Of a stretch of DNA of 64,000 nucleotides, positions 20,615-41,181 are shown piece by piece. Numbering within the stretch: the stretch's first letter is position 1; each line of letters starts with the position of its first letter. The position numbers and the translations under genes were made by a program. The notes below the pieces were generated by a model that saw only the letters and a list, made by a program, of their open reading frames with translations, was not told the origin of the DNA and did not search any database. The DNA is taken from NCBI RefSeq assembly GCF_000013865.1, contig NC_007948.1, positions 806,001-870,000 on the forward strand, given 5' to 3'. The DNA comes from Polaromonas sp. JS666 (GTDB taxonomy: Bacteria > Pseudomonadota > Gammaproteobacteria > Burkholderiales > Burkholderiaceae_C).

Positions 20615-20758
20615 TGCATGGCCTCGGGAGCTACACGCAGTGAGCGGCCATGGGGGCTCTCCAACCCAGCAGGGGCCGCGGAACCGGCTTTGCCGGGCCG
20701 CAGGCGCAGCGGCCCCCTCGGGGGGCAGCGCAGTACACGCAGTGACAAGCGTGGGGGC
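20615..20758 (-). repeat. Intergenic palindromic repeat, copy A (reverse orientation, 144 bp)
   Basis: Reading on the minus strand, this copy begins GCCCCCACGCTTG, CACTGCGTGT, GCGCTGCCCCCC and includes the hairpin CCGGCAAAGCCGG. It continues into a second, diverged CCCCCA edge and CTCACTGCGTGTAGCTC. It almost exactly mirrors copy B at 21528-21671, and the two bracket the permease gene. Its GTGGGGGC edge ends six bases before the permease start codon. Confidence 0.85.
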
Positions 20759-20764
20759 CTCAAT

Positions 20765-21520
20765 ATGACCGGCTGGCAAACCCTTTTTTACAAGGAAGTC
20801 CTGCGCTTCTGGAAGGTCGGCTTCCAGACGGTGGGCGCGCCGGTGCTGACCGCGGTGCTCTACATGCTGATTTTTGGCCACGTGCTGCAGGACCAGGTGA
20901 AGGTGTACGACCAGGTGAGTTACACCGCCTTTCTGGTGCCTGGCCTGGTGATGATGAGCGTGCTGCAAAACGCCTTCGCCAACAGCTCGTCGTCGCTGAT
21001 CCAGAGCAAGATCATGGGCAGCCTGGTGTTTGTGCTGCTGACACCGCTGTCGCACTGGCACTGGTTTTTTGCCTATGTGGGCTCGTCGATCGCACGCGGC
21101 CTGCTGGTGGGCATGGGCGTGTTTGCCGTCACCGTTTTTTTTGGTCAGCCCGGCTTTGTGGCGCCGTGGTGGATCGTGCTGTTTTCGGTGCTGGGCGCGG
21201 CCATGCTGGGTGCCCTGGGTGTGATCGCGGGGCTATGGTCTGAAAAATTTGACCAGATGGCGGCTTTCCAGAATTTCGTCATCATGCCCATGACTTTCCT
21301 GAGCGGCGTGTTTTACTCGATCCATTCACTGCCGCCGTTCTGGCAAAAGGTCAGCCACCTGAACCCGTTCTTTTACATGATTGACGGTTTCCGCTACGGA
21401 TTTTTCGGGGTCAGCGATGTGTCGCCCTGGCTGAGTCTGGGCATCGTGCTGGTTGCGCTGGCCATCGTCAGTGCTGTCGCGGTCAATATGCTGCGCACCG
21501 GCTACAAAATCAGGCACTAG
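20765..21520 (+). CDS. ABC-2 type permease (YadH-like)
   Basis: A 251-residue membrane protein with about six hydrophobic spans and the ABC-2 signature region GLWSEKFDQMAAFQNFVIMPMTFLSGVFY (central part of the second half), followed by FWQKVSHLNPFFYMIDGFRYG. It forms an exporter with the upstream ATPase. The frame is open upstream to 20618, but that part is translated repeat, so I use ATG 20765. The nearest purine-rich stretch before it is the GGGGG edge of the repeat. The gene is flanked by inverted 144-bp repeats. Confidence 0.88.
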   Translation: MTGWQTLFYKEVLRFWKVGFQTVGAPVLTAVLYMLIFGHVLQDQVKVYDQVSYTAFLVPGLVMMSVLQNAFANSSSSLIQSKIMGSLVFVLLTPLSHWHWFFAYVGSSIARGLLVGMGVFAVTVFFGQPGFVAPWWIVLFSVLGAAMLGALGVIAGLWSEKFDQMAAFQNFVIMPMTFLSGVFYSIHSLPPFWQKVSHLNPFFYMIDGFRYGFFGVSDVSPWLSLGIVLVALAIVSAVAVNMLRTGYKIRH

Positions 21521-21527
21521 AAATATG

Positions 21528-21671
21528 GCCCCCACGCTTTTCACTTCGTGTAATGCGCTGCCCCCCGAGGGGGCCGCTGCGCCTGCGGTCTGGCAAAGCC
21601 AGTCCCGCGGCCCCTGCTGGGATGAAGAGCGCCCACGCTTGCTCACTGCGTGTAGCTCTCGAGGCCTTGCA
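21528..21671 (+). repeat. Intergenic palindromic repeat, copy B (forward, 144 bp)
   Basis: Begins seven bases after the permease stop with GCCCCCACGC, then CACTTCGTGT, GCGCTGCCCCCC and the imperfect hairpin CTGGCAAAGCCAG. It ends in a second partial edge, GCCCACGCTTG then CTCACTGCGTGTAGCTC. By eye it pairs over nearly its full length with copy A in inverted orientation, 769 bases apart. Confidence 0.85.
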
Positions 21672-21698
21672 CTGCGAACTCTTTTTTGAAACCTTGTT

Positions 21699-21956
21699 AT
21701 GACCAGCGAAGAACTCCAAACCATCATTGCCGCAGGCCTGCCCTGTGAACACATCGAGCTCTCGGGCGACGGCCGGCACTGGTATGCCACTATTGTTTCC
21801 AGTGCGTTCGAGGGCCTGCGCCTGATCCAGCGTCACCAGCGCGTGTATGCGACGCTGGGCGGGCGCCTGCAGACCGATGAAGTGCATGCGCTGTCCATGA
21901 AAACCTACACGCCCGCGGAGTGGGCGGCCAACAACGCAAACCAAGCAGCAGACTGA
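21699..21956 (+). CDS. BolA family protein (IbaG/YrbA-like)
   Basis: An 85-residue BolA-fold protein with a predicted class-II KH-like core. GDGRHWYATIVSSAFEGL is the conserved segment with the family histidine, followed by RHQRVYATLGG and the C-terminal HALSMKTYTP. Such proteins act with monothiol glutaredoxins in iron-sulphur handling, and a GrxD gene is present at 63.3-63.6 kb. It sits just before murA, the same neighbourhood as E. coli ibaG. It ends six bases before the murA start. Confidence 0.88.
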   Translation: MTSEELQTIIAAGLPCEHIELSGDGRHWYATIVSSAFEGLRLIQRHQRVYATLGGRLQTDEVHALSMKTYTPAEWAANNANQAAD

Positions 21957-21962
21957 CAACGC

Positions 21963-23237
21963 ATGGACAAACTACTCATCAAGGGCGGCAGATCGCTCGC
22001 CGGCACCGTCGATATCTCGGGCGCCAAGAATGCCGCCCTCCCGGAACTGTGCGCGGCGCTGCTCACGGCCGACACTGTGACGCTGGAGAACGTGCCGCGC
22101 CTGCAGGACGTGGCCACCATGCTCAAGCTGATCCGCAACATGGGCGTGGAAGCCGAACGCGGCACCCATGCGCCGGGAACCGTCACCCTCCATGCCGGCG
22201 CCTTGAGCTCGCCCGAAGCGCCCTATGAATTGGTGAAGACCATGCGCGCCTCCGTGCTGGCGCTGGGCCCGCTGCTGGCGCGCTTTGGCGAAGCCACGGT
22301 GTCGCTGCCCGGTGGCTGCGCCATTGGCTCGCGGCCGGTAGACCAGCACATCAAGGGCCTGCAGGCCATGGGCGCCGAGATCGTGGTCGAGCACGGCTAC
22401 ATGATTGCCAAACTTCCTGCGGGTCAAAAGCGCCTCAAGGGTGTCAGCATCACCACCGACATGGTGACCGTCACCGGCACGGAAAACTTCCTGATGGCCG
22501 CCAGCCTGGCCGAAGGCGAAACGATTCTGGAAAACGCCGCGCAGGAGCCCGAGATCGGCGACCTGGCTGACATGCTCATCAAGATGGGCGCGAAGATCGA
22601 AGGCCACGGCACGCGCCGCATCCGCATCCAGGGCGTGGAGCGCCTGCATGGCTGTACCCACCAGGTGGTGGCCGACCGCATTGAAACCGGCACCTTTCTG
22701 TGCGCGGTGGCCGCGGCGGGCGGCGATGTGGTGCTCCGGCATGGCCGGGCCGACCACCTCGATGCGGTCATCGACAAGCTGCGCGAAGCGGGCGCCACCA
22801 TCACGGCCGGCGAGGGATTCATCCGCATCCAGGCGCAGGGCCGCATGAAGGCCCAGTCCTTCCGTACCACGGAATATCCGGGTTTTCCCACCGACATGCA
22901 GGCCCAGTTCATGGCGCTCAACGCCATTGCACAGGGCAGCAGCACGGTCACCGAAACGATTTTTGAAAACCGCTTCATGCACGTCAACGAGATGGTGCGC
23001 CTGGGTGCGAAGATCCAGATCGAAGGCAAGGCGGCCGTCATGGAAGGCGTTGAAAAACTTTCGGGCGCCACCGTCATGGCCACCGATCTGCGGGCTTCCG
23101 CCAGCCTGGTGATTGCCGGCCTGGTGGCCGAAGGCGAAACCCTGGTGGACCGGATTTACCACCTGGACCGCGGCTACGACCAGATGGAGGCCAAATTGCG
23201 CGGCATCGGTGCAGACATAGAACGGGTAAGGGCATGA
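21963..23237 (+). CDS. murA: UDP-N-acetylglucosamine 1-carboxyvinyltransferase
   Basis: MurA joins enolpyruvate from PEP to UDP-GlcNAc, the first committed step of peptidoglycan synthesis. The 424-residue protein has the normal length. The catalytic cysteine is Cys119 in [15 protein letters not shown], so fosfomycin sensitivity would be expected. [17 protein letters not shown] and the closing [17 protein letters not shown] are family motifs. The stop codon is directly followed by a palindromic repeat (copy C). Confidence 0.96.
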
Positions 23238-23320
23238 GCCCCCACGCTTGTCGCTTCGCGTACTACGCTGCCCCCCGAGGGGGCCGCCCGCCTGCAGTCC
23301 GGCGAAGCCGGCCCTGCGGC
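23238..23320 (+). repeat. Intergenic palindromic repeat, copy C (forward)
   Basis: GCCCCCACGCTTGTC starts at the first base after the murA stop. It continues with GCTTCGCGTA, ACGCTGCCCCCC, and CCGGCGAAGCCGG, and becomes diverged or truncated after about 83 bases. Same family as copies A, B, D and H. Confidence 0.8.
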
Positions 23321-23405
23321 TTGAACTTGGCAAGGCGGGACGATGCTGTCGCCCATCGGCTTTTTTGCGTCCCTTTTCTTGTCCCTTTTCTTTGAAGGCA
23401 TCACC

Positions 23406-24044
23406 GTGATCACGCTCGCACTTTCCAAAGGCCGCATCTTCGACGACATCCTGCCGCTGCTCAGAAGCGCCGGGATCGAAGTGCTCGACGACCCTGAAAA
23501 ATCACGCAAGCTGATCCTGCGGACCAACCAGCCCGATCTGCGCGTGGTACTGGTGCGTGCCACCGATGTGCCGACCTATGTGCAGTATGGCGGCGCGGAC
23601 ATTGGCGTGGTTGGCAAGGACACTCTGCTGGAGTCCGGCAGCCAGGGCCTGTACCAGCCGCTGGACCTGCAAATCGCCCGGTGCCGCATCAGCGTGGCCG
23701 TGCGCGAAGGTTTTGACTATGCGGCTGCCGTGAAGCAGGGCTCGCGGCTGAAAGTGGCGACCAAGTACGTGGCCATTGCCCGCGACTTCTTTGCCTCCAA
23801 GGGTGTGCACGTCGACCTGATCAAGCTTTACGGCAGCATGGAGCTGGCGCCGCTCACCGGCCTGGCCGACGCCATCGTCGACCTGGTTTCCACCGGCAGC
23901 ACGCTCAAGGCCAACCACCTGATCGAGGTCGAGCGCATCATGGACATCAGCTCGCACCTGGTGGTCAACCAGACCGCCCTCAAACTCAAGCAGGCGCCCA
24001 TCCGCAGGCTGATTGACGCCTTGTCCTTGGCCATCACGCAATAG
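23406..24044 (+). CDS. hisG: ATP phosphoribosyltransferase, short form
   Basis: HisG condenses ATP and PRPP in the first step of histidine synthesis. The GTG start gives [18 protein letters not shown] at the N-terminus and 212 residues, the short form that lacks the C-terminal regulatory domain and works as a complex with HisZ. An upstream ATG (23343) adds 21 hydrophobic residues foreign to the family. Conserved pieces include [12 protein letters not shown] and [18 protein letters not shown]. No hisZ is present in this window. Confidence 0.93.
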
Positions 24045-24056
24045 TCCGCAAAGAAT

Positions 24057-24073
24057 GCTATGAATTTAGTAGC
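24057..24073. repeat. Short GCTA...TAGC palindrome overlapping the hisD start (copy 2)
   Basis: GCTATGAATTTAGTAGC spans the end of the hisG-hisD gap and the first hisD codons. The A of the outer GCTA is the first base of the start codon. Only the outer four bases and the inner AATT are symmetric, so this is a weaker member of the family. Confidence 0.4.
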
Positions 24074-25403
24074 CAACCCCGTACGCCTTTCGACCGCTTC
24101 CAGCACATTCGATGCTGAATTCAAGGCGCGCCTGCACTGGTCTGCCGATACCGATGCGGCCATCGAACAGCGGGTGGCTGACATCCTCCTGGACGTGCAG
24201 CGGCGCGGCGATACGGCTGTGCTCGAGTACACCGCGCGTTTTGACGGCCTGAGCGTCTCGGCCATGAGTGCGCTGGAGCTCAGCCAGGCCGAGCTGAAGG
24301 CCGCGTTTGATGCGATTCCTGCCGCCCAGCGCGCTGCCTTGCAGGCTGCGGCCCGCCGGGTGCGCAGCTACCACGAGGCCCAGAAGAAGGCCAATGGTGA
24401 AGGCTGGAGCTACCGTGATGAAGACGGCACCCTGCTCGGCCAGAAGGTCACACCGCTGGACCGCGTCGGCATCTATGTGCCGGGTGGCAAGGCGGCTTAC
24501 CCCTCATCGGTGCTGATGAACGCCATTCCGGCCCACGTGGCCGGTGTGGGCGAAATCATCATGGTGGTGCCCACACCCAAGGGCGAGAAGAACCCGCTGG
24601 TTCTGGCCGCTGCCTATGTGGCCGGCGTGACGCGCGCCTTCACCATTGGCGGCGCGCAGGCCGTGGCTGCGCTGGCCTACGGTACCTCGACCATTCCCGC
24701 GGTCGACAAGATCACCGGCCCCGGCAATGCCTACGTGGCCGCGGCCAAGCGCCGCGTCTTCGGCACGGTGGGCATCGACATGATTGCCGGCCCTTCCGAA
24801 ATCCTGGTGCTGGCCGACGGCAGCACCCCCGTCGACTGGGTGGCCATGGATTTGTTCAGCCAGGCCGAGCACGATGAACTGGCGCAAAGCATTTTGCTGT
24901 GTCCGGATGCGGCCTACATCGACCAGGTGCACGAGGCCCTCAACCGCCTGCTGCCTGCCATGCCGCGCGCCGAGATCATTGCCAAATCGCTCAACGGCCG
25001 GGGTGTGCTGATCCATACCCGCAGCATGGAAGAGGCCTGCGCCCTCAGCAACCGCATTGCGCCCGAGCACCTGGAAGTCTCCAGCAGCCAGCCGCATGAA
25101 TGGGAGCCGCTGCTCAAGCACGCCGGCGCCATCTTCCTCGGCGCCTACACCAGCGAGTCGCTGGGCGACTACTGCGCCGGCCCCAACCACGTGCTGCCCA
25201 CCAGCGGCACGGCACGCTTTTCCAGCCCGCTGGGCGTGTATGACTTCCAGAAACGCTCCAGCCTGATCGAAGTGAGCGAGCAGGGTGCCCAGACACTGGG
25301 CAGGATTGCCGCTGAACTGGCCTACGGCGAAGGTCTGCAGGCGCATGCCCGCGCCGCCGAGATGCGCCTGCACACCGTACCCGATATGAAAGTGACCAAA
25401 TGA
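24060..25403 (+). CDS. hisD: Histidinol dehydrogenase
   Basis: HisD oxidises histidinol twice with NAD to give histidine, using a zinc ion. The 447-residue protein shows [36 protein letters not shown], the zinc-site region [10 protein letters not shown], and the closing [12 protein letters not shown]. Its first codons (MNLVAN) coincide with a short palindrome also seen in non-coding places. It overlaps hisC by four bases. Confidence 0.95.
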
Positions 25404-26476
25404 CCGCGCTGGACCCGAAGTTCAAACAGCTGATTCGCCAGGACGTGCAGTCCATGCATGCCTATGCCATTCAGGACTCCGTTGGCATGGTCAAGCTCGA
25501 TGCAATGGAGAACCCGTATCGGCTGCCGGCCGCGTTGCAGGCCCATCTCGGGCAGCGGCTGGGCGCGCTGGCGCTGAATCGCTACCCTGACGGCCGCGTC
25601 AACGACCTGCGCCAGGCCCTGGCAGACTACGCCCGGATGCCAGAAGGCTTTGACATCATGCTGGGCAACGGCTCGGACGAGCTGATTTCGCTGCTGGCCA
25701 TGGCCTGCGACGTGCCGGGCGGCTCCATCCTGGCGCCGCTGCCGGGCTTTGTGATGTACGGCATGAGCGCACAGCTGCAGGGCCTCAAGTTCACGGGTGT
25801 GCCGCTCACGGCTGACTTTGAGCTCGACGAAGCCGCCATGCTGGCCGCCATCGCCGAGCACCGGCCGTCCATCATTTACCTGGCCTACCCGAACAACCCC
25901 ACCGCCAACCTGTGGGACGATACCGTCATTGAGAAAATCATCACCGCAGCGCCCGGTCTGGTGGTGATGGACGAGGCCTACCAGCCGTTTTCCAGCAAAA
26001 GCTATATCGACCGCATTGCCAGGCACAGCCATGTGCTGCTGATGCGCACCCTCAGCAAGTTTGGGCTGGCCGGCGTGCGCATTGGCTACATGATGGGCCC
26101 GAAGGCCCTGATTGCCGAGATCGACAAGGTGCGCCCGCCCTACAACATCAGTGTGCTCAATTACGAGTGCGCGCTGTTTGCGCTGGAGCACCGGGAAGTG
26201 TTCGCCGAGCAGGCCGCGGCCGTGGTCGCGCAGCGCACCATGCTGCTGGACGCGCTGGCGGCCATGAAGGGCGTCAAGGCCTGGAAAAGCGACGCCAACA
26301 TGATCCTGGTGCGGGTCCCGGATGCGGCCAAAACCTTTGAAGGCATGAAGTCGCGCCATGTGCTGGTCAAAAACGTTTCTAAAATGCATCCATTGCTGGC
26401 CAATTGTTTGCGCCTGACCGTCGGCACCGCGGACGAGAATACGCAAATGCTGGCGGCGCTTGAAAAATCCCTATGA
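25400..26476 (+). CDS. hisC: Histidinol-phosphate aminotransferase
   Basis: A 358-residue fold-type I PLP enzyme that converts imidazole acetol-phosphate to histidinol-phosphate. The Schiff-base lysine is Lys220 in TLSKFGLAG. The cofactor and substrate segments [10 protein letters not shown] and [10 protein letters not shown] are present. It overlaps hisD upstream and hisB downstream by four bases each, so hisD-C-B are tightly coupled. Confidence 0.94.
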
Positions 26477-27093
26477 CCACCCCTTCCACTGCTCCGACCC
26501 CGGCCCCGCGCAAGGCGGAAGTCTCGCGCAACACCGCCGAGACCCAGATCACCGTCAAGCTCAACCTGGACGGCACGGGCAAAGCCAGCCTGTCGACGGG
26601 CATCGGCTTTTTCGACCACATGCTGGACCAGATCGCCCGCCACGGCCTGATCGACCTGGACATCCAGGCCAAGGGCGACCTGCACATTGATGGCCACCAC
26701 ACGGTGGAAGACGTCGGCATCACCTTCGGACAGGCCGTGGCCCAGGCCGTCGGCGACAAAAAAGGCCTGCGCCGCTATGGCCACGCCTATGTGCCGCTGG
26801 ACGAGGCCCTATCGCGCGTGGTGATCGATTTCTCGGGCCGCCCCGGCCTGGAAATGCATGTGCCCTTCAAGAGCGGCATGATAGGTACCTTTGACAGCCA
26901 GCTCGCCTATGAATTCTTCCAGGGTTTTGCCAACCATGCGTTTGTGACGCTGCACATTGACAACCTGCGTGGCGACAACGCCCATCATCAGGCCGAAACC
27001 GTGTTCAAGGCGTTTGCGCGGGCGCTGCGCATGGCGCTGGAAATCGACCCGCGGTCGGCAGGCGTGATTCCGTCGACCAAGGGCTCGCTGTAG
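26473..27093 (+). CDS. hisB: Imidazoleglycerol-phosphate dehydratase
   Basis: A 206-residue monofunctional IGPD, unlike the fused HisB of enterobacteria. The duplicated metal-binding patterns are [15 protein letters not shown] with [11 protein letters not shown], and later [24 protein letters not shown]. It ends with the typical IPSTKGSL. A 98-bp gap separates it from hisH, the longest repeat-free gap in the his run. Confidence 0.95.
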
Positions 27094-27191
27094 GTGCCGG
27101 TGCGCCATGGATGGACCGTTCCCCGTTTTGGGTTTTCTGCCCCGCTAGAATGGACGTCAATAGCTCCTGAGTCCGTAGCAAATATCGATGA

Positions 27192-27863
27192 ATGTCTAAT
27201 GTGAAAAGAGTGGCGGTCGTCGACTACGGCTCGGGCAACCTGCGTTCGGTGTCACAAGCTGTTCAGCATGTGTCTCAGGGCAGCGGCTATGAGGTGTTGG
27301 TCACCTCGCGCGCGCAGGACGTGCTGGACGCCGAGCGTGTGGTGCTGCCCGGCCAGGGGGCCATGCCTGACTGCATGCGGGCGCTGTCTGAATCCGGCCT
27401 GAAGGATGCGGTATTGCATGCCGCCGCGAACAAACCCCTGTTCGGCGTGTGTGTGGGCATGCAGATGCTGCTGGACCGCAGTCACGAGGGGGTCGCCGGC
27501 ATCGCAACGCCCGGCCTGGGCCTGATTCCCGGCGAGGTCGTCAAGTTCGACCTGGCCGGGCAGATCCAGCCCGATGGCAGCCGCTACAAGGTGCCGCAAA
27601 TGGGCTGGAACCAGGTGTGGCGGCCTGCCTCGATCCAGCACCCGATCTGGGCTGGCGTGCCGGACGGTGCCTATTTTTACTTCGTGCACAGCTTTTATGC
27701 CCGTCCGTCGGATGCGCGCCACATCGCCGGAGAGGCGGACTATGGCGGGCGCTTTACGGCGGCAATTGCACGCGATAATATTTTTGCCACCCAGTTCCAC
27801 CCCGAGAAAAGCGCCGACCACGGACTGGCCCTGTACCGCAATTTCCTGCACTGGAAGCCCTGA
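27192..27863 (+). CDS. hisH: Imidazole glycerol phosphate synthase, glutaminase subunit
   Basis: HisH hydrolyses glutamine and channels ammonia to HisF. The 223-residue class-I amidotransferase has the nucleophile Cys87 in [10 protein letters not shown] and the His/Glu pair in ATQFHPEKS. An overlapping ATG at 27188 is out of frame. The upstream gap has a weak GCTC...GTAGC palindrome-like stretch, about 27161-27181. Confidence 0.94.
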
Positions 27864-27943
27864 AGGCCGCCGGGCAGCAGGGCGACTCATCATAATTTCC
27901 AGCTCTTTGTTAACCCCGCCACCTGTTTTCCTCTTACCGCAAC

Positions 27944-28684: not shown

Positions 28685-28751
28685 GCGCAGCTGCAACGAG
28701 TGGCAGGTTGTGCAGAGGGGCTGTAGTGGACGCGCATGACGGTTTAGTATT

Positions 28752-28845
28752 CCAGCCAGGGCCGCGGAACCGGCTTCGCCGGGCCGCAGGCGCAGCGGCC
28801 CCCTCGGGGGGCAGGGCGCCACACGAAGTGGGCAACCGTGGGGGC
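28752..28845 (-). repeat. Intergenic palindromic repeat, copy D (reverse)
   Basis: On the minus strand it reads GCCCCCACGG, CACTTCGTGT, CCTGCCCCCC and CCGGCGAAGCCGG, ending near CCTGGCTGG. The GTGGGGGC edge finishes two bases before the hisF start codon. Same orientation relative to the downstream gene as copy A. Confidence 0.85.
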
Positions 28846-28847
28846 TT

Positions 28848-29627: not shown

Positions 29628-29727
29628 CGCAGCCCCGCAGGCTTCGCGCACTGCGTGTCGCTACACCTTCCCCCTGCCGGGGCGACATCTGCGGTCCGGC
29701 CAAGCCGGCCCCGCGATGTCCTGGCCT
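29628..29727 (+). repeat. Intergenic palindromic repeat, copy E (diverged, forward)
   Basis: Starts directly after the hisF stop with GCAGCCCCGCAGGCTTCGC, then CACTGCGTGTCGCT, CTTCCCCCTGCCGGGG and GTCCGGCCAAGCCGGCC. The order of hairpins is that of the main family, but sequence identity is lower, so this is a divergent member. Confidence 0.65.
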
Positions 29728-29781
29728 GGAGGGTTTTGTGTTGCAATCGCCTGAAGTATTCAAATCCCCGACAATAGACCC

Positions 29782-30171: not shown

Positions 30172-30194
30172 CCTCAGCCTTACCGGTAACGCGC

Positions 30195-30578: not shown

Positions 30579-30627
30579 ATTTTTCCCGGCATTTCCCGCC
30601 GCCTTTCCTGCTGACTGGAGCCCCACT

Positions 30628-31599: not shown

Positions 31600-31851
31600 A
31601 TGGGTTCATTTTCCATTTGGCACTGGTTGATCGTGCTGTTGATCGTGGTCATGGTGTTTGGCACCAAGAAACTCAAAAACATGGGCAGCGACCTTGGTAG
31701 CGCCGTCAAGGGCTTCAAGGATGGCATGAAAGACGGCGGGCAGTCCGCAGCCGCCACGGACGACAAGCCTGCGGCCCCTGCTGGGCAGGTTACCAACGCC
31801 CAGGCGTCTGACAAAACCACGATTGACGTGGAAGCCCGGCAAAAGTCCTGA
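31600..31851 (+). CDS. tatA: Sec-independent translocase subunit TatA
   Basis: An 83-residue protein with one N-terminal transmembrane helix (about 4-21, [15 protein letters not shown]), the hinge [14 protein letters not shown], an amphipathic helix (about 22-45) and a polar tail. TatA polymerises to let folded twin-arginine proteins cross the inner membrane. AGGAGCG precedes the ATG. Upstream lies a 209-bp gap, so tatABC may have its own promoter. Confidence 0.94.
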
Positions 31852-31861
31852 AGAATGTTGA

Positions 31862-31950
31862 TCCCCTACGCTTGCGCTTCCCATGCCGCGCTGCCCCCGG
31901 GGCGGCGCTACCTCTTGGGCGGCCGGGCGGCAAGTCTGGCCTTGTCGTTT
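31862..31950 (+). repeat. Intergenic palindromic repeat, copy F (diverged, forward)
   Basis: CCCCTACGCTTGCGCTTC, GCGCTGCCCCCGGGG and a later GGCAAGTCTGGCC follow the order of the main family. It starts about ten bases after the tatA stop and fills most of the tatA-tatB gap. Divergence is marked, so assignment rests on architecture. Confidence 0.6.
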
Positions 31951-31958
31951 GACGCCGC

Positions 31959-32441: not shown

Positions 32442-32504
32442 TCGTTCCGGTCTTCCTTTCTTTCCGCGCACTCCGGCGCCCTCCATCCAGCGCAAACTCC
32501 CTTC

Positions 32505-33305: not shown

Positions 33306-33347
33306 GGTTGCGCGCCGGCCCCCGCCAACCCCGGCGCATTGATCCCC

Positions 33348-34502
33348 TCAGCGCTGCACCCTGGGCCGCTGGCGCTTGCCGGGTGTGACCGCAATGTCGG
33401 TCTGGCGATCCCGGCGCCATACGGTCAGGGGGGCCGGCGTGCCGGGCTTCAGCGCGGCTACGGCGGTCAGCAGTTGGCTCACATTGCTCACGGACTTGCC
33501 GTTGACCGCGGTGATCACGTCGCCGGGCTGGATGCCCGCCTGCGCGGCCGGGCCGTTTTGCAGCACGCCGATGATGATCACGCCGCCATCCTTCAGCGCC
33601 GCGGGCTTGATATTGAAGGTCTCAGCCAGTTCGGCATTGAGCTCCTGCGGTTCCACGCCAATCCAGCCGCGCGTGACCTGCCCGTCTTTCACGATCCCCT
33701 CAAGCACCTGCTTGGCCGTGGACACCGGGATGGCAAAGCCGATGCCCATGGAGCCGCCCGAGCGCGAGTAAATGGCGGTGTTGATGCCCATCAGGTGGCC
33801 GTTCACGTCGACCAGCGCCCCGCCTGAATTGCCGGGGTTGATGGCCGCATCGGTCTGGATGAAGTTCTCGAAGGTGTTGATGCCGAGCTGGTTGCGCCCG
33901 AGTGCGCTCACGATGCCACCCGTCACGGTCTGGCCCACGCCGAAAGGGTTGCCTATGGCCAGCACCGGGTCGCCTATTTGCAGTGCGTCGGAGTTGCCCA
34001 GGACAATGACGGGCAGCTTGTCCAGGTTGATCTTGAGAATGGCCAGGTCGGTGTCGGGGTCGGTGCCTATCACCTGGGCCTTGGCCTTGCGCGTATCGTT
34101 GAGGATGACCTCGATCTCGTCAGCGCCTTCGACCACATGGTTGTTGGTCAGGATATAGCCGGTGGCGCTGATGATGACCCCGCTGCCCAGGCCGCCCTGG
34201 GGTTCGCTGCGGCCCTGGTCGCCGAAGAAAAACTTGAACCACGGATCGTCGGCATGCGGGTTATTGACGGCGGCCTTGCTGGTGTTGATGCTGACCACCG
34301 CCGCCGAGGCGATTTTCGCGGCCGAACTGAAGGTGCCGGCCGGTCTTGGACCGAGTTGCACGCTGCTGGCCGGTGCTTCGATCACGGAAACCCCGCCGAT
34401 CGACGAGGTCCCCAGCCACTGCGGCTGGAGCGTTGCCACGACAAAATAGGCGGCCACCAGAACAGTGACGGTCTGGGAAAACAGGAGCCAGGTGCGCTTC
34501 AT
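33348..34502 (-). CDS. Periplasmic serine protease, DegQ/DegS-like with one PDZ domain
   Basis: The 384-residue protein has an uncleaved-looking N-terminal helix (about 8-25), a trypsin-like domain with triad His122 (LTNNHVV), Asp152 (DTDLAIL) and Ser226 (NPGNSGGAL), and a single PDZ domain (about 280-370, GPAAQAGIQPGDVITAVNGK). One PDZ plus a membrane anchor suggests a DegS-like or single-PDZ HtrA. Such proteins degrade or sense misfolded envelope proteins. Transcribed opposite to tatC and divergent from the Nif3-like gene. Confidence 0.9.
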   Translation of the reverse strand: MKRTWLLFSQTVTVLVAAYFVVATLQPQWLGTSSIGGVSVIEAPASSVQLGPRPAGTFSSAAKIASAAVVSINTSKAAVNNPHADDPWFKFFFGDQGRSEPQGGLGSGVIISATGYILTNNHVVEGADEIEVILNDTRKAKAQVIGTDPDTDLAILKINLDKLPVIVLGNSDALQIGDPVLAIGNPFGVGQTVTGGIVSALGRNQLGINTFENFIQTDAAINPGNSGGALVDVNGHLMGINTAIYSRSGGSMGIGFAIPVSTAKQVLEGIVKDGQVTRGWIGVEPQELNAELAETFNIKPAALKDGGVIIIGVLQNGPAAQAGIQPGDVITAVNGKSVSNVSQLLTAVAALKPGTPAPLTVWRRDRQTDIAVTPGKRQRPRVQR

Positions 34503-34724
34503 GGGTACAAAGGGGGTTGGGGGTAGTGAGCGGAGTGTGTCAAGGCCAAATTATTTGCAGACCGGGGCAAGTGGGCGCTGCATCAACCATATTGTCCCTC
34601 AAGCCGGAATTTCCAGGGCTTATTCGGCGGCCGTTTTTGGCGTCACCGGGCGGGGGGGCCTACGCGTGGTCTGGCATGACCCGGACGAAATGCCTGTCCG
34701 TCCACTAGCTGAGACAATCAGGCC

Positions 34725-35486
34725 ATGAGCACCACCCGACAGGATTTGCTGCAGGCCTTCGATACGCTGCTGCAGCCCGCGCGTTTCAAGGACTACGGCC
34801 CCAACGGCCTGCAGGTCGAGGGGCGGGCGCAGATTGGCAAAATCGTCTCGGGCGTCACGGCCAGCCGCGCGCTGATCGAGGCCGCCATTGCGGAGCAGGC
34901 CGATGCCCTGTTTGTGCACCATGGCCTGTTCTGGCGGGGCCAGGATGGCCGGGTCACGGGCTGGATGAAGCAGCGCCTGGCCTTGCTGCTGGCCCACGAC
35001 ATCAACCTGTTCGCCTACCACCTGCCGCTGGATGCGCACCCCGAGCTGGGCAACAATGCGCAGCTCGGTGCCCGGCTCGGCTTGCAGGCGACGGCCCGGT
35101 TCGGCGAGCAGGACCTGGGCTTTATGGGTGGGCGGGCCGATGGCGGCAGCTTTGCCAGCGCGTATGCCCTGGCCGAGCACGTCAAAAAGGTGGTGAATCG
35201 GCCCGTCGTTATTGAAGGTCGGCCGCACGATGCCATAAAAAACATAGCATGGTGCAGCGGCGGTGCACAGGGCTACTTTGAAGCCGCGATTGCGGCGGGC
35301 GCCGACGCCTTCATCACGGGCGAGATTTCCGAGCCGCAGGCCCACTACGCGCGGGAGATGGGTGTGGCCTTCATCGCCTGTGGCCACCATGCCTCCGAGC
35401 GCTACGGTGCGCCGGCTGTGGCTGCTCAGGTGGCAGCGCAACTGGGCCTGGCCCACCAGTTCATTGATATCGATAACCCGGCCTGA
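34725..35486 (+). CDS. Nif3-like dinuclear metal-centre protein (YbgI family)
   Basis: A 253-residue member of the Nif3/YbgI family with the metal-binding motifs LFVHHGLFW near the N-terminus and CGHHASERYG near the C-terminus. The family has been linked to GTP cyclohydrolase-like folds and hydrolase activity, but its role is unsettled. Its promoter must lie in the 222-bp gap shared with the divergent protease gene. Confidence 0.88.
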   Translation: MSTTRQDLLQAFDTLLQPARFKDYGPNGLQVEGRAQIGKIVSGVTASRALIEAAIAEQADALFVHHGLFWRGQDGRVTGWMKQRLALLLAHDINLFAYHLPLDAHPELGNNAQLGARLGLQATARFGEQDLGFMGGRADGGSFASAYALAEHVKKVVNRPVVIEGRPHDAIKNIAWCSGGAQGYFEAAIAAGADAFITGEISEPQAHYAREMGVAFIACGHHASERYGAPAVAAQVAAQLGLAHQFIDIDNPA

Positions 35487-35520
35487 TTATTTGCCCGAGT
35501 CCTCCCCCTCAACAACCCTC

Positions 35521-36567
35521 ATGCATAACAAGCCCCTGCTCATCACGATGGGCGATGCCGCCGGCATCGGCCCGGAAATCATCGCCAGGGCGTTTGGCGA
35601 ATCGCCCATCGAGATGGCTGGTTGCGTGGTGGTCGGCGATGTGGCCACACTGCGCCGTGCCGCGGCACTGGTGGCTTCACCCCTGGCCTTGCCGGTGGCT
35701 GAGTTCGCGGAACTGGCCGACGCGGCCTCCGTGCCGCCGCATTGCATTGGTGTGCTGCAAAAATGTGAGCTGGATACGCCCGTACCTTTTGGACAGGTGA
35801 GTGCTCTGGCTGGAAAAGCTGCGGCCGATTGCATTGTCTGGGCGGCCCGCGCGGTGCTGGCGGGTGAGGCGGCCGGCATGGTGACGGCGCCCATTCACAA
35901 GGAGGCGCTGGCCGCGGCCGGCGGCTGGGCAGCGAATTTCCCGGGCCACACCGAACTGCTGCAGGCCGAGGCCGCGGCCTTCCTGGGCAAGCCGGTGCGC
36001 GAGGTGCCGGTGCGCATGATGCTGGCCAACAACGAGCTGAAAACCGTGCTGGTGAGCATTCACCTGTCGCTCAGGCGCGCCATCGAGGCTGTGACCTATG
36101 ACAACGTGCTGCAAACCCTGCGTATTGCGCACCGGGCGATAGGCGCCAGCCTGGGGCGGGCTCCCCGCATCGCCGTGGCGGGGCTGAATCCGCATGCCGG
36201 CGAAGGAGGCCTGTTCGGCGACGAGGAGCAGGCCATCATTGCGCCAGCCATCGCGGCCGCCCGTGCGGAGGGTCTGGAGGTGAGCGGTCCCTTCGCCCCG
36301 GATACCGTCTTCATGCGGGCCCGCCACACGCCGGCCAAGCCCGGCGAGTTTGATGTGGTGGTCGCCATGTACCACGACCAGGGATTGATTCCGGTGAAGT
36401 ACCTCGGGGTGGAGCAGGGCGTGAATGTGACGCTGGGGCTGCCACTGGTGCGCACCAGCCCGGATCACGGCACGGCTTTTGACATCGCCGGGCGCGGCGT
36501 GGCCGATGCGTCCAGCCTGCTGGCAGCCATCCGCATGGCAAAAAAACTGGCCCCTTCAAGGGGGTAA
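35521..36567 (+). CDS. pdxA: 4-hydroxythreonine-4-phosphate dehydrogenase
   Basis: PdxA oxidises 4-phosphohydroxy-threonine with NAD in pyridoxal phosphate synthesis. The ATG at 35521 gives 348 residues and the family start LLITMGDAAGIGPEI. The frame stays open upstream into the Nif3 gene, but that part is a shadow. Metal-binding histidines appear in FPGHTELL and AMYHDQGLIPVK, and the end DHGTAFDIAGRG is typical. In many proteobacteria pdxA lies beside ksgA and surA, so its position here is different. Confidence 0.94.
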   Translation: MHNKPLLITMGDAAGIGPEIIARAFGESPIEMAGCVVVGDVATLRRAAALVASPLALPVAEFAELADAASVPPHCIGVLQKCELDTPVPFGQVSALAGKAAADCIVWAARAVLAGEAAGMVTAPIHKEALAAAGGWAANFPGHTELLQAEAAAFLGKPVREVPVRMMLANNELKTVLVSIHLSLRRAIEAVTYDNVLQTLRIAHRAIGASLGRAPRIAVAGLNPHAGEGGLFGDEEQAIIAPAIAAARAEGLEVSGPFAPDTVFMRARHTPAKPGEFDVVVAMYHDQGLIPVKYLGVEQGVNVTLGLPLVRTSPDHGTAFDIAGRGVADASSLLAAIRMAKKLAPSRG

Positions 36568-36601
36568 AAATCCTGCAGGCCAACAGGTATGGGCGAAATA
36601 A

Positions 36602-36618
36602 GCTATTAAATCAATAGC
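36602..36618. repeat. Short GCTA...TAGC palindrome (copy 3)
   Basis: GCTATT and AATAGC around AAATC, a perfect six-base-arm palindrome 34 bases after pdxA. It is followed by AATCGCCA, the same eight bases that follow the palindrome at 54059-54075, which suggests common origin. Confidence 0.55.
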
Positions 36619-36633
36619 AATCGCCATGTCTTC

Positions 36634-36732
36634 GCAAGCGGGGGGCGCCGGTCTGGCTTTGCCAGCCGGCAGGCGCCGTCCCCTGTAGGGGAGAGGCCCG
36701 CTACACGAAGTGAGCGAGCCACAGGGGGGTGC
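36634..36732 (-). repeat. Intergenic palindromic repeat, copy G (diverged, reverse)
   Basis: On the minus strand it reads GCACCCCCCTGTGGCTC, CTCACTTCGTGTAGC, CTCCCCTACAGGGGA and GGCTGGCAAAGCCAG. The CCCCC edge touches the base after the mscL stop codon (mscL is on the minus strand), the same edge-to-stop arrangement as copies B, C and H. Confidence 0.75.
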
Positions 36733-37161
36733 TTATTTCTTCAGGCTGTCGCGAATTTCGCGCAGCAGCATGACGTCTTCGGGTGGTGTTGCGGGCGCCG
36801 CAGGCTGGGTCTCCTGGCGGCGTTTGAGCCGGTTGATCTGCTTGATCATCAGGAAAATGATGAAGGCCAGGATGGCAAAGTTGACGGCGACGGTGATGAA
36901 GTTGCCATAGGCAAGCACCGGTACGCCGGCCTTTTTCAGGGCGTCCAGCGTCATGGCGGTGCCCGGCGGCACGCTGCCCATCACCACAAACAGGTTGGAA
37001 AAATCCAGCTTGCCTACCACGGCACCCACGACCGGCATGATCAGGTCACCCACCACGGATTCGACAATCTTGCTGAACGCCGCGCCTATGATCACGCCCA
37101 CTGCCAGATCGATCACATTGCCCTTGACCGCAAATTCCCTGAATTCCTGCATCATTCCCAT
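36733..37161 (-). CDS. mscL: Large-conductance mechanosensitive channel
   Basis: MscL opens under extreme membrane tension to release solutes during osmotic downshock. The 142-residue form starting [15 protein letters not shown] is the family N-terminus. An upstream ATG at 37188 adds nine residues. Two transmembrane helices are visible ([18 protein letters not shown] and [18 protein letters not shown]), followed by the basic/acidic C-terminal bundle. Transcribed divergently from petABC. Confidence 0.95.
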
Positions 37162-37351
37162 GTGCAACTCCTGTTGTTGGTGAATCATTGCTGACCGCCC
37201 CTCGTGAGTGTCGAAAAGTCATTATGAAGGCTGGATCGGATGCTCGACGCGGTATCTTGCGATTGGCCTGAAAGAGCGCTCGCCCTGCCTGGCAACCTGC
37301 GCCGAAACACGCCCGGCACTGGCGGCAGCCAGCCGAGTCAGGCGGCCCGCC

Positions 37352-37381
37352 TTGAAAAACGCGTTCGCGCTCCGCTACAAT
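37352..37381 (+). promoter_or_regulatory. Putative sigma-70 promoter of petABC
   Basis: TTGAAA (37352-37357) and TACAAT (37376-37381) with an 18-base spacer, ending about 50 bases before the petA start. Both hexamers match the consensus at five and four or more positions. It lies in the 271-bp divergent gap with mscL. Prediction only. Confidence 0.5.
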
Positions 37382-37432
37382 TACGGGTTGACCCCACTAT
37401 GCCTTTTTCAAGCCAGTTCTTGAAGGACTCTC

Positions 37433-38059
37433 ATGACCCAAGCAAGCGTGAACGCAGTGCCGCACGGCGCTCCTGTAGATAAAGATAAAAGAAACTGGCT
37501 CGTGGCCACGGCCGTTGCAGGCACCGCTGGCGCTGCCGCTGTCGCCGTTCCCTTTGTGAGCAGTTTTCAACCGTCCGAGCGTGCCAAGGCCGCCGGTGCG
37601 GCTGTCGAAGTTGATATTTCCGGCATCAAGCCCGGCGAGAAAATCACGGTCGAGTGGCGCGGCAAACCGGTGTGGATTGTCAAGCGCACGCCCGAGCAGC
37701 TCGCCTCCCTGCCCAAAGTCGATGCACTGCTGGCCGACCCCAAGTCCGAGCGCAAGCCGGATGAGTTGACCCCCAAATACGCTCGCAACGAAACCCGTTC
37801 CATCAAGCCCGAAACGCTGGTAGTGGTGGGCATCTGCTCGCACCTGGGCTGCTCGCCGTCCGACAAGTTCCTGCCGGGCGCCCAGCCCTCGCTGCCTGAC
37901 GACTGGGCGGGCGGCTTCCTCTGCCCCTGCCATGGCTCCACCTTCGACATCGCCGGCCGCGTCTACAAAAACAAGCCCGCTCCCGATAACCTGGAAGTGC
38001 CTCCGCACATGTACCTGTCAGATACCCGGCTGCTGATTGGTGAAGACAAAAAGGCCTGA
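37433..38059 (+). CDS. petA: Ubiquinol-cytochrome c reductase iron-sulfur subunit (Rieske)
   Basis: The 208-residue Rieske protein carries electrons from ubiquinol to cytochrome c1 in the bc1 complex. The 2Fe-2S ligands are Cys135 and His137 (CSHLGC) with Cys164 and His167 (CPCHGS). Cys140 and Cys166 would form the stabilising disulfide. A single N-terminal helix (about 21-44) anchors it. The region before the helix reads DKDKRNWLVA, with KR where Tat signals usually have RR. It is the first gene of petABC. Confidence 0.95.
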   Translation: MTQASVNAVPHGAPVDKDKRNWLVATAVAGTAGAAAVAVPFVSSFQPSERAKAAGAAVEVDISGIKPGEKITVEWRGKPVWIVKRTPEQLASLPKVDALLADPKSERKPDELTPKYARNETRSIKPETLVVVGICSHLGCSPSDKFLPGAQPSLPDDWAGGFLCPCHGSTFDIAGRVYKNKPAPDNLEVPPHMYLSDTRLLIGEDKKA

Positions 38060-38184
38060 AGGCTGATCAATCCTTCCAAAGACCCTGCCGAAAGCGCTTG
38101 AAAATTGCTGGCCATTCTGCCAAATGGAATGCCCGGGCCTGATTCAGGCGATCGACAAAGAACCCCACCGAACCAGGATCAGTG

Positions 38185-39585
38185 ATGGCTGAATTCAAAG
38201 AAATTTCCCCCGATGCCCCCCTCGCTGCCAAGGCGATGGCCTGGGTTGACAACCGTTTTCCCGCCAGCAAGCTCTACAAAGAGCACATGAGCGAGTATTA
38301 CGCGCCGAAGAACTTCAACTTCTGGTACATCTTTGGCTCGCTGGCCATGCTGGTGCTGGTGATCCAGATCGTCACCGGTATTTTCCTGACCATGCACTAC
38401 AAGCCGGATGCGGCACTGGCGTTTGGCTCGGTCGAATACATCATGCGGGACGTGCCTTGGGGCTGGTTGATCCGCTACATGCACTCCACCGGTGCCTCGG
38501 CGTTCTTTGTCGTGGTCTACCTGCACATGTTCCGCGGCCTGATCTACGGCAGCTACCGCAAGCCGCGCGAGCTGATCTGGATTTTCGGCTGCGCAATTTT
38601 CCTCTGCTTGATGGCCGAAGCGTTCATGGGCTACCTGTTGCCGTGGGGCCAGATGAGTTACTGGGGCGCCCAGGTGATCGTCAACCTGTTTGCCGCCATT
38701 CCCTTCATTGGTCCCGATCTGGCGCTGCTGATTCGCGGCGACTATGTGGTGGGCGATGCCACGCTGAACCGTTTCTTTGCCTTCCACGTGATTGCCGTGC
38801 CGCTGGTCCTGCTGGGCCTGGTCGCCGCGCACATCATCGCGCTGCATGAAGTGGGCTCCAACAACCCCGACGGCGTGGAGATCAAGGCCACCAAGGGAGC
38901 GGATGGTCATCCGCTGGACGGCATTCCCTTCCATCCCTACTACACCGTGCACGACATTTTTGGTGTTTGCCTGTTCCTGATGGTGTTCACCGCCATCGTT
39001 TTCCTGGCACCGGAATTCGGCGGCTATTTCCTCGAATACAACAAGTTCATCCCGGCTGATCCGCTCAAGACGCCCGCGCACATCGCACCTGTCTGGTATT
39101 TCACTCCGTACTACTCCATGCTGCGTGCGATTACCAGCGAGATGATGTATGCGCTCATCGCCTGCGTGGTCGGCGCTGCGGCCCTGAGCGTGGTCAAGTT
39201 CAAGATGCCTGTGTTGCTCAAGGCGGTCATCGTGGGCGCGGCCCTGGTGGTGTCGGTGCTGATGCTGTCGATCGATGCCAAGTTCTGGGGCGTGATGGTC
39301 ATGGGTGGCGCTGTTGTCATCCTGTTCTTCCTGCCGTGGCTGGACCACAGCGAAGTCAAGTCCATCCGCTACCGCCCAAGCTGGAACAAGATCCTCTATG
39401 GCGTGTTCGTGGTCAACTTCCTGGTGCTCGGTTACCTGGGCGTGCAGCCACCGTCACCGGTCGGCGAGCGCGTGTCGCAGATCGGCACCCTGTTCTACTT
39501 CGGCTTCTTCCTGCTGATGCCCTGGTGGAGCCGGCTGGGTACCTTCAAGCCCGTGCCCAACCGCGTGACTTTTGCTGCCCACTGA
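38185..39585 (+). CDS. petB: Cytochrome b subunit of the bc1 complex
   Basis: A 466-residue cytochrome b with eight or more hydrophobic spans. Heme-ligand histidines sit in the helix RYMHSTGASAFFVVVYLHMF and in the matching helix with HVIAVPLVLLGLVAAH. The quinol-site PEWY-like motif is present as APVWYFTPYYSML. ATG 38185 is used. A GTG directly before it is also in frame. The C-terminal extra helices after 400 are usual for bacterial forms. Confidence 0.95.
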   Translation: MAEFKEISPDAPLAAKAMAWVDNRFPASKLYKEHMSEYYAPKNFNFWYIFGSLAMLVLVIQIVTGIFLTMHYKPDAALAFGSVEYIMRDVPWGWLIRYMHSTGASAFFVVVYLHMFRGLIYGSYRKPRELIWIFGCAIFLCLMAEAFMGYLLPWGQMSYWGAQVIVNLFAAIPFIGPDLALLIRGDYVVGDATLNRFFAFHVIAVPLVLLGLVAAHIIALHEVGSNNPDGVEIKATKGADGHPLDGIPFHPYYTVHDIFGVCLFLMVFTAIVFLAPEFGGYFLEYNKFIPADPLKTPAHIAPVWYFTPYYSMLRAITSEMMYALIACVVGAAALSVVKFKMPVLLKAVIVGAALVVSVLMLSIDAKFWGVMVMGGAVVILFFLPWLDHSEVKSIRYRPSWNKILYGVFVVNFLVLGYLGVQPPSPVGERVSQIGTLFYFGFFLLMPWWSRLGTFKPVPNRVTFAAH

Positions 39586-39602
39586 GCTGGAAAGTTGTAA
39601 CA

Positions 39603-40370
39603 ATGAAAAAACTGATTTCTAACGCGATTTTTGCCCTGATCACGGCGGTGGGCCTGATGGCCGGCGCACAGGCTTCGGAAGGTGGCATGGCCTGGGACAA
39701 GGCGCCCGGCAAGGTCAACGACATGGCCACCCTGCAGAGCGGCGCCAGGCTGTTTGTCAATTACTGCCTGAGTTGCCATTCGGCCGCCTACATGCGTTAC
39801 AACCGCCTCACGGACATCGGTCTGAGCGAGCAGCAGATCAAGGACAACCTGCTGTTCACCACTGAAAAAGTCGGTGAAACCATGAAGGCCGCGATCGACC
39901 CGAAACAGGCCAAGGACTGGTTCGGCGGCAACCCGCCAGACTTGAGCGTGATTGCGCGCTCGCGCTCCGGGGCAAATGGCACCGGTGCCGACTATCTCTA
40001 CACCTACCTGCGCACCTACTACCGCGACGAGACCAAGGCTACGGGCTGGAACAACCTGGCTTTCCCCAGTGTGAGCATGCCGCATGTGCTGTGGGAGCTG
40101 CAGGGCGAGCGCAAGCCGGTCTACCTGGAGAAGGAAGAGCACGGCCACAAGGTATCCATCTTCAAGGGCTGGCAGCAGGTCACGCCCGGCACCATGACGC
40201 CGTTGCAATATGACCAGGCCATGGGCGACCTGGTGGGCTTCCTGCAATGGATGAGCGAACCGGTCCAGAACACGCGCGTTCGTGTGGGCGTGTGGGTGCT
40301 GATTTTCCTTCTTGGCATGACCTTTATCGCCTGGTGCCTGAATGCGGCGTTCTGGAAAGATATCAAGTAA
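39603..40370 (+). CDS. petC: Cytochrome c1 of the bc1 complex
   Basis: A 255-residue protein with a Sec signal (1-24, ending GAQA), one heme c site CLSCH (Cys55, Cys58, His59), and a probable axial Met in AFPSVSMPHVLWEL. One C-terminal membrane anchor (VGVWVLIFLLGMTFIAW) follows. The in-frame region upstream (from 39336) is a shadow of petB. The operon ends with a terminator. Confidence 0.94.
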   Translation: MKKLISNAIFALITAVGLMAGAQASEGGMAWDKAPGKVNDMATLQSGARLFVNYCLSCHSAAYMRYNRLTDIGLSEQQIKDNLLFTTEKVGETMKAAIDPKQAKDWFGGNPPDLSVIARSRSGANGTGADYLYTYLRTYYRDETKATGWNNLAFPSVSMPHVLWELQGERKPVYLEKEEHGHKVSIFKGWQQVTPGTMTPLQYDQAMGDLVGFLQWMSEPVQNTRVRVGVWVLIFLLGMTFIAWCLNAAFWKDIK

Positions 40371-40413
40371 TTTCTCGCCGGGCCATGCGCTTTGCTGCGT
40401 GCCGGCATCTTCG

Positions 40414-40461
40414 GAGTGGAAGGTTCTAAGTTTTGATTCTTAGCCTCCACTCTTTTGTTTT
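40414..40461 (+). terminator. Rho-independent terminator after petC
   Basis: GAGTGGAAGGTTCTAAG pairs with CTTAGCCTCCACTC with small bulges around a TTTTGATT loop, and is followed at once by TTTTGTTTT. It separates petABC from sspAB. Confidence 0.75.
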
Positions 40462-40476
40462 CAGGAGTTCCGAATC

Positions 40477-41088
40477 ATGATGGTCCTTTATTCAGGCACG
40501 ACCTGCCCCTTCTCGCACCGCTGCCGTTTTGTGTTGTTTGAAAAAGGCATGGACTTCGAAATCCGCGACGTCGACCTCTACAACAAACCGGAAGACATCA
40601 ATGTGATGAACCCTTACGGCCAGGTTCCGATTCTGGTCGAGCGGGACCTGATCCTGTACGAGTCGAACATCATCAACGAGTACATCGACGAGCGCTTCCC
40701 GCATCCGCAGCTGATGCCCGGCGACCCGGTCGACCGCGCGCGTGTTCGCCTGTTCCTGCTGAACTTTGAGAAAGAGCTGTTTGTGCATGTCAGCACGCTG
40801 GAATCGCGCGCCTCCAAGGGCAACGAGAAGGCGCTGGAAAAAGCCCGTTCGCACATCCGCGACCGCCTGACGCAGCTGGCTCCGATCTTCCTGAAGAACA
40901 AGTTCATGCTCGGCGACAACTTCTCCATGCTGGACGTGGCGATTGCGCCGCTGCTCTGGCGCCTGGACTACTACGATATCGACCTGTCAAAAAATGCAGC
41001 GCCGCTGCTCAAGTATGCCGAACGCATTTTTTCGCGCCCGGCCTATATTGAAGCGCTGACGCCCTCCGAGAAGGTCATGAGAAAATAA
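40477..41088 (+). CDS. sspA: Stringent starvation protein A homologue (GST fold)
   Basis: A 203-residue glutathione-S-transferase-fold protein. The N-terminus MVLYSGTTCPFSHRCRFVLFE and the cis-Pro region NPYGQVPILVERDL are as in SspA, which binds RNA polymerase and affects stress and virulence genes. The place between petABC and sspB supports the assignment over a general GST. AGGAG precedes the double ATG start. Repeat copy H follows. Confidence 0.92.
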   Translation: MMVLYSGTTCPFSHRCRFVLFEKGMDFEIRDVDLYNKPEDINVMNPYGQVPILVERDLILYESNIINEYIDERFPHPQLMPGDPVDRARVRLFLLNFEKELFVHVSTLESRASKGNEKALEKARSHIRDRLTQLAPIFLKNKFMLGDNFSMLDVAIAPLLWRLDYYDIDLSKNAAPLLKYAERIFSRPAYIEALTPSEKVMRK

Positions 41089-41090
41089 TG

Positions 41091-41181
41091 GCCCCCACGC
41101 TTGCCACTTCGTGTGCTGCGCTGCCCCCTGGGGGGGCGCTGCGCCTGCGGCCCGGCAAAGCCGGTTCCGCGGCCCTTGCTA
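41091..41181 (+). repeat. Intergenic palindromic repeat, copy H (forward)
   Basis: GCCCCCACGCTTGCC begins two bases after the sspA stop, then CACTTCGTGT, GCGCTGCCCCCT, GGGGGGGCGCTGCG and CCGGCAAAGCCGG, ending near CGCGGCCCTTGCT. A close match to copies A, B and D. It fills most of the sspA-sspB gap. Confidence 0.85.

Follow-up and report, generated by a model that had tools for sequence, protein, structure and literature searches.

Hairpin-forming repeats of Polaromonas sp. JS666 mostly lie with one fixed end at gene boundaries

What sets the same edge of a hairpin-forming repeat against the ends of genes, copy after copy? The question is raised by 64,000 nucleotides of the Polaromonas sp. 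JS666 chromosome (C1:806001-870000 of the 5.9-Mb, three-replicon host genome G000; hereafter, the window), where a sequence-only reading had singled out eight copies of a multi-hairpin intergenic repeat whose C-rich edge touches stop or start codons, and had offered two causes: insertion aimed at gene ends, or selection for a function in RNA. Our analysis favours the first. We propose that the repeats are non-autonomous, hairpin-forming mobile elements of about 80 to 102 bp, inserted preferentially at gene boundaries, and give this a probability of roughly 0.62. The repeats have a constant head, alternative tails, tandem arrays, a C-poor target and a head anchored at stop codons, and are present or absent from one species to the next. 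Insertion is favoured because copies with a close paralogue already lie at stops, because the corresponding junctions of relatives are empty and often overlapping, and because a C-poor target stands 5′ of the edge. Selection for an RNA-level function is possible rather than shown: several copies are eroded, related species lack some of them, and covariation in the hairpin is equally expected if mobility needs the hairpin.

Each of the eight stretches (Table 1) proved to be a real copy: aligned to the two family consensus sequences, it outscored 300 dinucleotide shuffles for one of them or both. The five taken to be close matches are indeed close, with type I scores of 122 to 184 and shuffle maxima of 49 to 54. 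Copies E, F and G had been said to share the order of hairpins; E and G are eroded type I units (63 against a shuffle maximum of 45, and 74 against 41), and F, which aligns slightly better with type II (63, shuffle maximum 41) than with type I (58, shuffle maximum 51), therefore lacks the full hairpin order and was the one window copy missed by the profile that recovered the other 7. Copies A and B are inverted-repeat partners (89% over 145 nt). Copies A, D and G lie on the minus strand, which puts the C-rich edge at the higher of their two coordinates. The head faces a stop in 6 of the 8 copies and a start in 2, at distances of 0 to 10 bp (two of them extrapolated for eroded heads), as had been claimed; the accompanying statement that all the gaps lie in or next to co-directional or operonic genes was wrong for copy G, whose gap is convergent.

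A unit opens with GCCCCCACG, continues with a hairpin and then CTGCCCCCCGAGGGGGC, and ends in one of two alternative tails: GCGCCTGCGG.CYGGCRAAGCCRG..CCGCGG in type I, with a tandem period of about 102 bp, or TGAACTTGCTTGGGGCGGCCC in type II, with an 81-bp period in one array by hand count. The 12-base edge GCCCCCACGCTT, taken by itself with up to 2 mismatches, occurs 11 times in the window and 13.1 times in shuffles and is thus not enriched; the other three motifs of the window are enriched above all 100 shuffles, and the whole unit is far commoner in the host than chance. Further modules follow the tails, for example CTCGAGGCCTTGCAGGCCGCGGCTCGCGAGACGCTTCGCCTCTGTCG and GGAGCCGCAGGCTCC (seen by eye in loci L001-L030, in host blocks and at 20580-20630 of the window), which gives the repeats the look of mosaics with blocks beyond those described for types I and II.

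The family reaches well beyond the window. Profile searches of six 400-kb blocks of the host chromosome plus the window, 2.464 Mb in total, found 132 repeat clusters, about 54 per Mb, the window being the densest of the seven pieces (7 clusters per 64 kb), and a reversed control pattern gave 0 matches in 13 other genomes. The first 1.264 Mb has 65 groups; 16 of these are multi-unit, and 12 of the 16 lie on one strand. An anchored head is present in 95 of the 132 clusters (76 intergenic and 19 intragenic), and the other 37 are excluded from the counts that follow. A rough order-wide tally, in which at most 3 candidates were scored per genome and many matches fell near the E-value limit, found repeat matches in 22 of 300 genomes. 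A plasmid collection yielded one matching record (61 of 145 bases at 85%), and an Rfam scan of 20000-42000 matched no family at the repeats. One record titled Polaromonas sp. JS666 UNC47MFTsu3.1 (L334) matches the host sample in the repeats alone, and its strain label may be wrong. Four records from another family of the order (L252-L255) carry a related but different hairpin head, CCCCCGAAGCGC.TGCG.GCGCTTCCCCC.

Of the intergenic copies, 76 have a readable head, which faces a stop in 51 and a start in 25. For the stop-facing units the GCCCCCACG edge lies between -5 and +14 bp of the stop in 50 of the 51, with a median distance of 5 bp on the head side and 89 bp on the tail side. Every head in a convergent gap necessarily faces a stop, and 11 of 11 such heads are within 12 bp of it, with tails up to hundreds of bp away. 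Taking all insertion points of element-free gaps as the null places 14% near a stop, or 17% when the points are weighted by a target motif trained solely on heads that do not face stops; using the motif as a threshold gives 17-20% (more than 1000 points) and, in convergent gaps, 15-29% (more than 100 points left). A second set, from a pattern scan of named genomes (at least 120 stretches, 80 used as loci), carries titles of Comamonadaceae genera (Variovorax, Ramlibacter, Polaromonas, Rhodoferax, Curvibacter, Acidovorax and others) and of assemblies named to higher rank. It comprises 84 heads among the matches listed, 26 of them in called genes, 55 intergenic and 3 near a locus end, and here 30 of 33 stop-facing heads fall within -5 to +14 bp (11 of 11 under Polaromonas titles, 19 of 22 under other titles). 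Some of the Polaromonas loci, L266 and L281 for instance, are by eye the junctions of host copies, so that the count under other titles is the more independent of the two. Judged by eye without gene calling, a start within about 20 bases of a stop triplet is also seen in four stretches from a genus in a different family (G162, G261) and in one stretch of G318. An oriented, non-random distance from edge to gene end, asserted at first for the window, is thus strongly supported in both sets.

Anchoring of this kind could be apparent rather than real. If insertion were random and coding insertions were purged, heads would seem anchored wherever ancestral gaps were short and tails were padded with modules. 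At 7 of the 8 window sites at least one relative does have a gap of about 60 bp or less (by our own reading), and tail sides often carry extra modules, by eye. Gaps of up to 60 bp hold 6.7% of host intergenic insertion points (8% for co-directional and 10% for convergent gaps), and therefore random insertion should mostly strike long gaps. A short gap in a relative could also stem from a deletion there. We consider plain retention unlikely.

The bases directly 5′ of the head are C-poor and A/T/G-rich, about RAATRTG. The last six are free of C at 65 of 95 host heads, as against 9% of host hexamers, at 38 of 84 named-locus heads among the matches listed, and at 17 of 45 intragenic heads of both sets. 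Since stop-facing, start-facing and intragenic heads share the tendency (weakest in the last), it is tied to insertion and not to stops alone. The target motif was rejected as the sole cause of anchoring, the motif-weighted null reaching just the 17% given above. A TG stands immediately before 20 of the 51 stop-facing heads, as would suit repeats that are translated mini-genes started at an ATG-like triplet before the head. The other 31 have no TG directly in front, and single-base length differences among heads, seen by eye, keep no frame; we rejected this idea as highly improbable.

Related species have copies at some of the junctions and lack them at others. (Gene names such as murA, hisA and petC are presumptive and follow from sequence and gene order.) Where copy C lies in the host, between murA and hisG, stop and start overlap as ATGA in three of three relatives (G024, G019 and G014), all of them without the repeat. 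Among 10 relatives the junction is empty in 8, with a copy in G002 and a head fragment at the same point in G008; murA could be read in 11 of 26 loci. Between hisA and hisF, a gap of 7 bp in G024, the host copy (D) has its head at the hisF start, and in G019 and G014 the orientation is reversed and the head lies at the hisA stop, with one more copy at the start in G014; this tight junction has thus apparently received independent, repeated insertions. Copy H, at a petC-like gene, is common to the host and G014 and absent from G024 and G019.

The first hairpin follows the pattern NN-CRC-loop-GYG-T-N'N', in which the single unpaired T was fixed by the search itself, its constancy being therefore built in. 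The NN and N'N' positions are Watson-Crick partners in 105 of 119 host copies, 85 of 94 named-locus copies and 46 of 50 copies from relatives in the genus (236 of 263 overall; overlap among some relatives' loci means that a few of the 50 hairpins were counted twice), with means of 24.3, 14.7 and 10.7 for shuffled partners. Ten Watson-Crick dinucleotide combinations occur at this stem foot. The remaining pairing cells comprise 15 G.T, 3 A.C and 18 other mismatches, and the excess of G.T over A.C (p 0.0075) suggests folding of the C-first strand; it fits RNA and single-stranded DNA alike and does not separate them. An RNAalifold consensus of 68 distinct type I units gave 1460 Watson-Crick, 7 G.U, 3 A.C and 26 otherwise mismatched cells, few of them informative, so the direct count of the head hairpin says more, with the proviso that the copies are related and the cells not independent events.

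If slow selection had sorted the copies, young ones should be more scattered. In the sampled copies, 32 of 45 with a nearest-paralogue identity of at least 95% over the first 80 bp are at stops, as are 18 of 50 below 95%; for stop-facing heads, 32 of 32 with a close paralogue lie near the stop, and 18 of 19 without one. Young copies are not more scattered, which favours insertion at gene boundaries over slow selection. The competing account is selection at the level of RNA, in which hairpins past the stop would serve for 3′-end protection, attenuation or stalling of the terminating ribosome, and copies elsewhere than at stops would be lost; such a role at stops is reportedly what Liang et al. 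described in 2015 for E. coli REP. The head's preference for the upstream stop in co-directional gaps (40 of 58, p 0.005) and the 15 G.T against 3 A.C would agree with it, as would the 80-nucleotide transcript BprJ1 that the accessible text of PMC3110155 assigns to a beta-proteobacterial repeat element (BRE) of Bordetella pertussis. It is at odds with the complete anchoring of the 32 close-paralogue copies, with the erosion of several copies and with the empty orthologous junctions, and intragenic copies of both orientations would serve no such role. On balance selection of this sort seems rather unlikely.

How, then, might insertion at boundaries work? A transposition-like step would join the head 3′ of a C-poor target; insertion would prefer gene boundaries, mostly tight junctions, and insertions within genes would survive only where frame and stop codons allow. 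Machinery of the single-strand-DNA (HUH/Y1) type would fit a hairpin with a one-sided target, as a candidate only. We also raise, tentatively, the narrower idea that the insertion machinery recognises translation boundaries themselves (stops, or a start-like NTG in C-poor context) with the same end toward the gene, in-gene inserts being tolerated mostly in one peptide frame. Heads run 42 leading to 53 lagging against 56% of genes leading (p 0.02), which is too weak to build on. Intragenic copies have their C-first strand in the lagging direction in 14 of 19 cases, a small number; such a bias would be in keeping with transposition of a single strand.

The host has one Y1_Tnp (RAYT-like) match, in the window itself, and it is possible, if doubtful, that a resident Y1 transposase moves the repeats, as proposed for TnpA-REP. 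A Y1 transposase gene, mostly single copy, is present in 30 of 31 genomes of the genus (one match in 22, two or three in 8) and in 12 of 13 named repeat-bearing genomes, and the head is an imperfect hairpin. The gene lies 13-14 kb from murA in seven species (G000, G004, G013, G014, G015, G019 and G024), and therefore looks vertically kept and housekeeping-like. Against a REP/RAYT system stand several facts: none of 13 Y1_Tnp loci, the host's included, has a repeat within 1.5 kb on each side; the protein scores 68.1 bits against NF047646 (REP_Tyr_transpos), below the cut-off of 80; no constant GTAG/CGTC tag is found at the hairpin foot, the bases after the head stem varying with their partners; and the gene is also present in genomes with few repeat matches. 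As the mobiliser, Y1_Tnp is a candidate and no more.

Several points weigh against preferential insertion by a mobile element. The lack of a repeat beside any of those 13 loci is one, and a draft Curvibacter genome with 6 heads and no Y1_Tnp match is another. The target motif alone falls short of explaining the stop anchoring. No clear target-site duplication is seen and exact tail ends vary; a TGA or ATG is repeated at some junctions, yet is required there as stop or start. The 25 of 76 intergenic heads that face starts are scattered (median distance 37), with 8 of them within -5 to +14, and 37 of 132 clusters were left out for want of an anchored head. Nearest-paralogue identity is a rough proxy for age that gene conversion could distort, and fast selection could blur the distinction drawn from it. 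Gene calls came from a custom codon-usage script.

From its published description the family is most likely BRE, the element of Hot et al. 2011 (PMC3110155). The accessible text of that paper gives BRE as about 90 bp, tandem, in several copies in Bordetella, Polaromonas sp. JS666, Delftia and others, with the largest count, 29, in Polaromonas sp. JS666; as mostly intergenic, some overlapping the ends of open reading frames by a few bases and some within coding sequences; and as differing in number among strains. Set side by side by description, the window family is alike in size (81 bp by hand count and about 102 bp), in tandem arrays (spacing about 102 bp), in mainly intergenic placement and in having some copies within genes. 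That same accessible text has nothing on head polarity, stop anchoring, target motif, hairpin covariation or reading frame for BRE. The accessible part of a 2024 review (PMC10969869) cites the 2008 JS666 genome paper for miniature inverted-repeat transposable elements in Polaromonas, which may be the same repeats.

REPs invite comparison too. According to the part of PMC3733652 at hand, REPs of the GTAG and CGTC kinds are found near the 3′ ends of the open reading frames upstream of them, and some inside open reading frames, so that stop proximity and in-gene copies are already known for REP-like repeats; REPs there are 20-40 bp with a terminal tag, whereas the window family is 80-102 bp with two hairpin modules and an untagged head stem. 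The ends of IS200/IS605 and TnpA-REP substrates are also strand-specific hairpins, some bulged, with cleavage beside the palindrome (PMC8266576, accessible part), but unlike IS200/IS605 the repeats have no adjacent transposase gene in the loci checked. A literature search covering few subscription journals turned up no further paper on the family, and no earlier report of polar fixed-head anchoring, the C-poor target, the young-copy test or the frame bias described below. These features may be new; stop-adjacent and in-gene placement are known for REP.

Copies within genes follow rules of their own. Of 21 gene overlaps examined in the host sample, two unanchored copies included, all 10 sense inserts read APTL; among the 11 antisense inserts, 9 end in SVGA or SVGV, one is headless and one has the other frame over the head. 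In the second set, 22 of 26 in-gene copies among the matches listed are in these two frames and the remaining 4 in the alternative open one (p 0.0005 for a departure from equal use, with copies that are not independent); a few called genes may be spurious open reading frames through arrays, for example in L319. As we read the type II consensus, each strand has one frame with stops, and therefore purging explains part of the bias; the remainder may reflect milder peptides or the phase of insertion. A Pfam scan of 10 of the 21 insert-bearing proteins showed a single domain match spanning the insert in RrnaAD, Lyase_aromatic and MFS_1; a domain matched in two stretches, the second not located relative to the insert, in MoaE, APH and PhzC-PhzF; no overlap between insert and domain matches in an oxidoreductase and an M20 peptidase; a match ending before the insert in a LysR regulator; and HisKA cut short in a kinase. 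The MoaE insert is present in 4 of the 27 genomes of the genus that match strongly; the remaining 23 have a main match that begins at residue 71-85, past the insert site, and many of them a separate earlier match as well. Three empty sequences, among 4 of 25 loci read, have RDRNDGL.V.. instead of RDRNM-[27 residues]. In-frame insertion in unrelated protein genes, and palindromic character, are shared with the Rickettsia palindromic elements of about 150 bp described in the accessible parts of PMC10969869 and PMC3733652, a likeness by description to elements of a different lineage, the window family being mostly intergenic. Nine loci (L213, L274, L277, L278, L282, L286, L307, L325 and L326) suggest that certain gene families carry in-gene copies in more than one species, often beside conserved motifs. 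Judged by motifs, these gene families are presumably PEP carboxylase, acetoacetyl-CoA synthetase, M20 peptidase, an APH-like kinase and trpE.

Table 1. Repeat copies and the candidate mobiliser gene in the window
Feature	Position	Strand	Description
Copy A	20615..20759	-	Type I and partial second unit; head edge, at 20759, lies 6 bp short of the following gene's start; profile match 20668-20755
Copy B	21528..21671	+	Type I and partial second unit; head 7 bp past stop
Copy C	23238..23327	+	Type I; head directly after stop of murA-like gene
Copy D	28752..28845	-	Type I; head edge at 28845, 2 bp before start
Copy E	29628..29718	+	Eroded type I after stop; extrapolated edge 7 bp from stop; profile match 29648-29716
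Copy F	31862..31930	+	Degenerate, nearest type II; 10 bp after stop ending at 31851; missed by profile
Copy G	36634..36727	-	Eroded type I in convergent gap; extrapolated head 5 bp from stop
Copy H	41091..41181	+	Type I; head 2 bp after stop
Y1_Tnp (RAYT-like) gene	7713..8408	+	One match in host; PF01797, 34.9 bits; candidate mobiliser only

Why REP-like repeats crowd stop codons is an old question, and the usual answer has been RNA function. The family described here offers many polymorphic copies whose anchoring has few exceptions, has a polarity and is already there in copies with close paralogues; experiments can therefore tell insertion from selection. Its in-gene copies provide one more natural system, beside those of Rickettsia and the REP repeats, for repeats that turn into protein segments. 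If the machinery does recognise translation boundaries, integration directed by stop codons would be a new kind of target choice.

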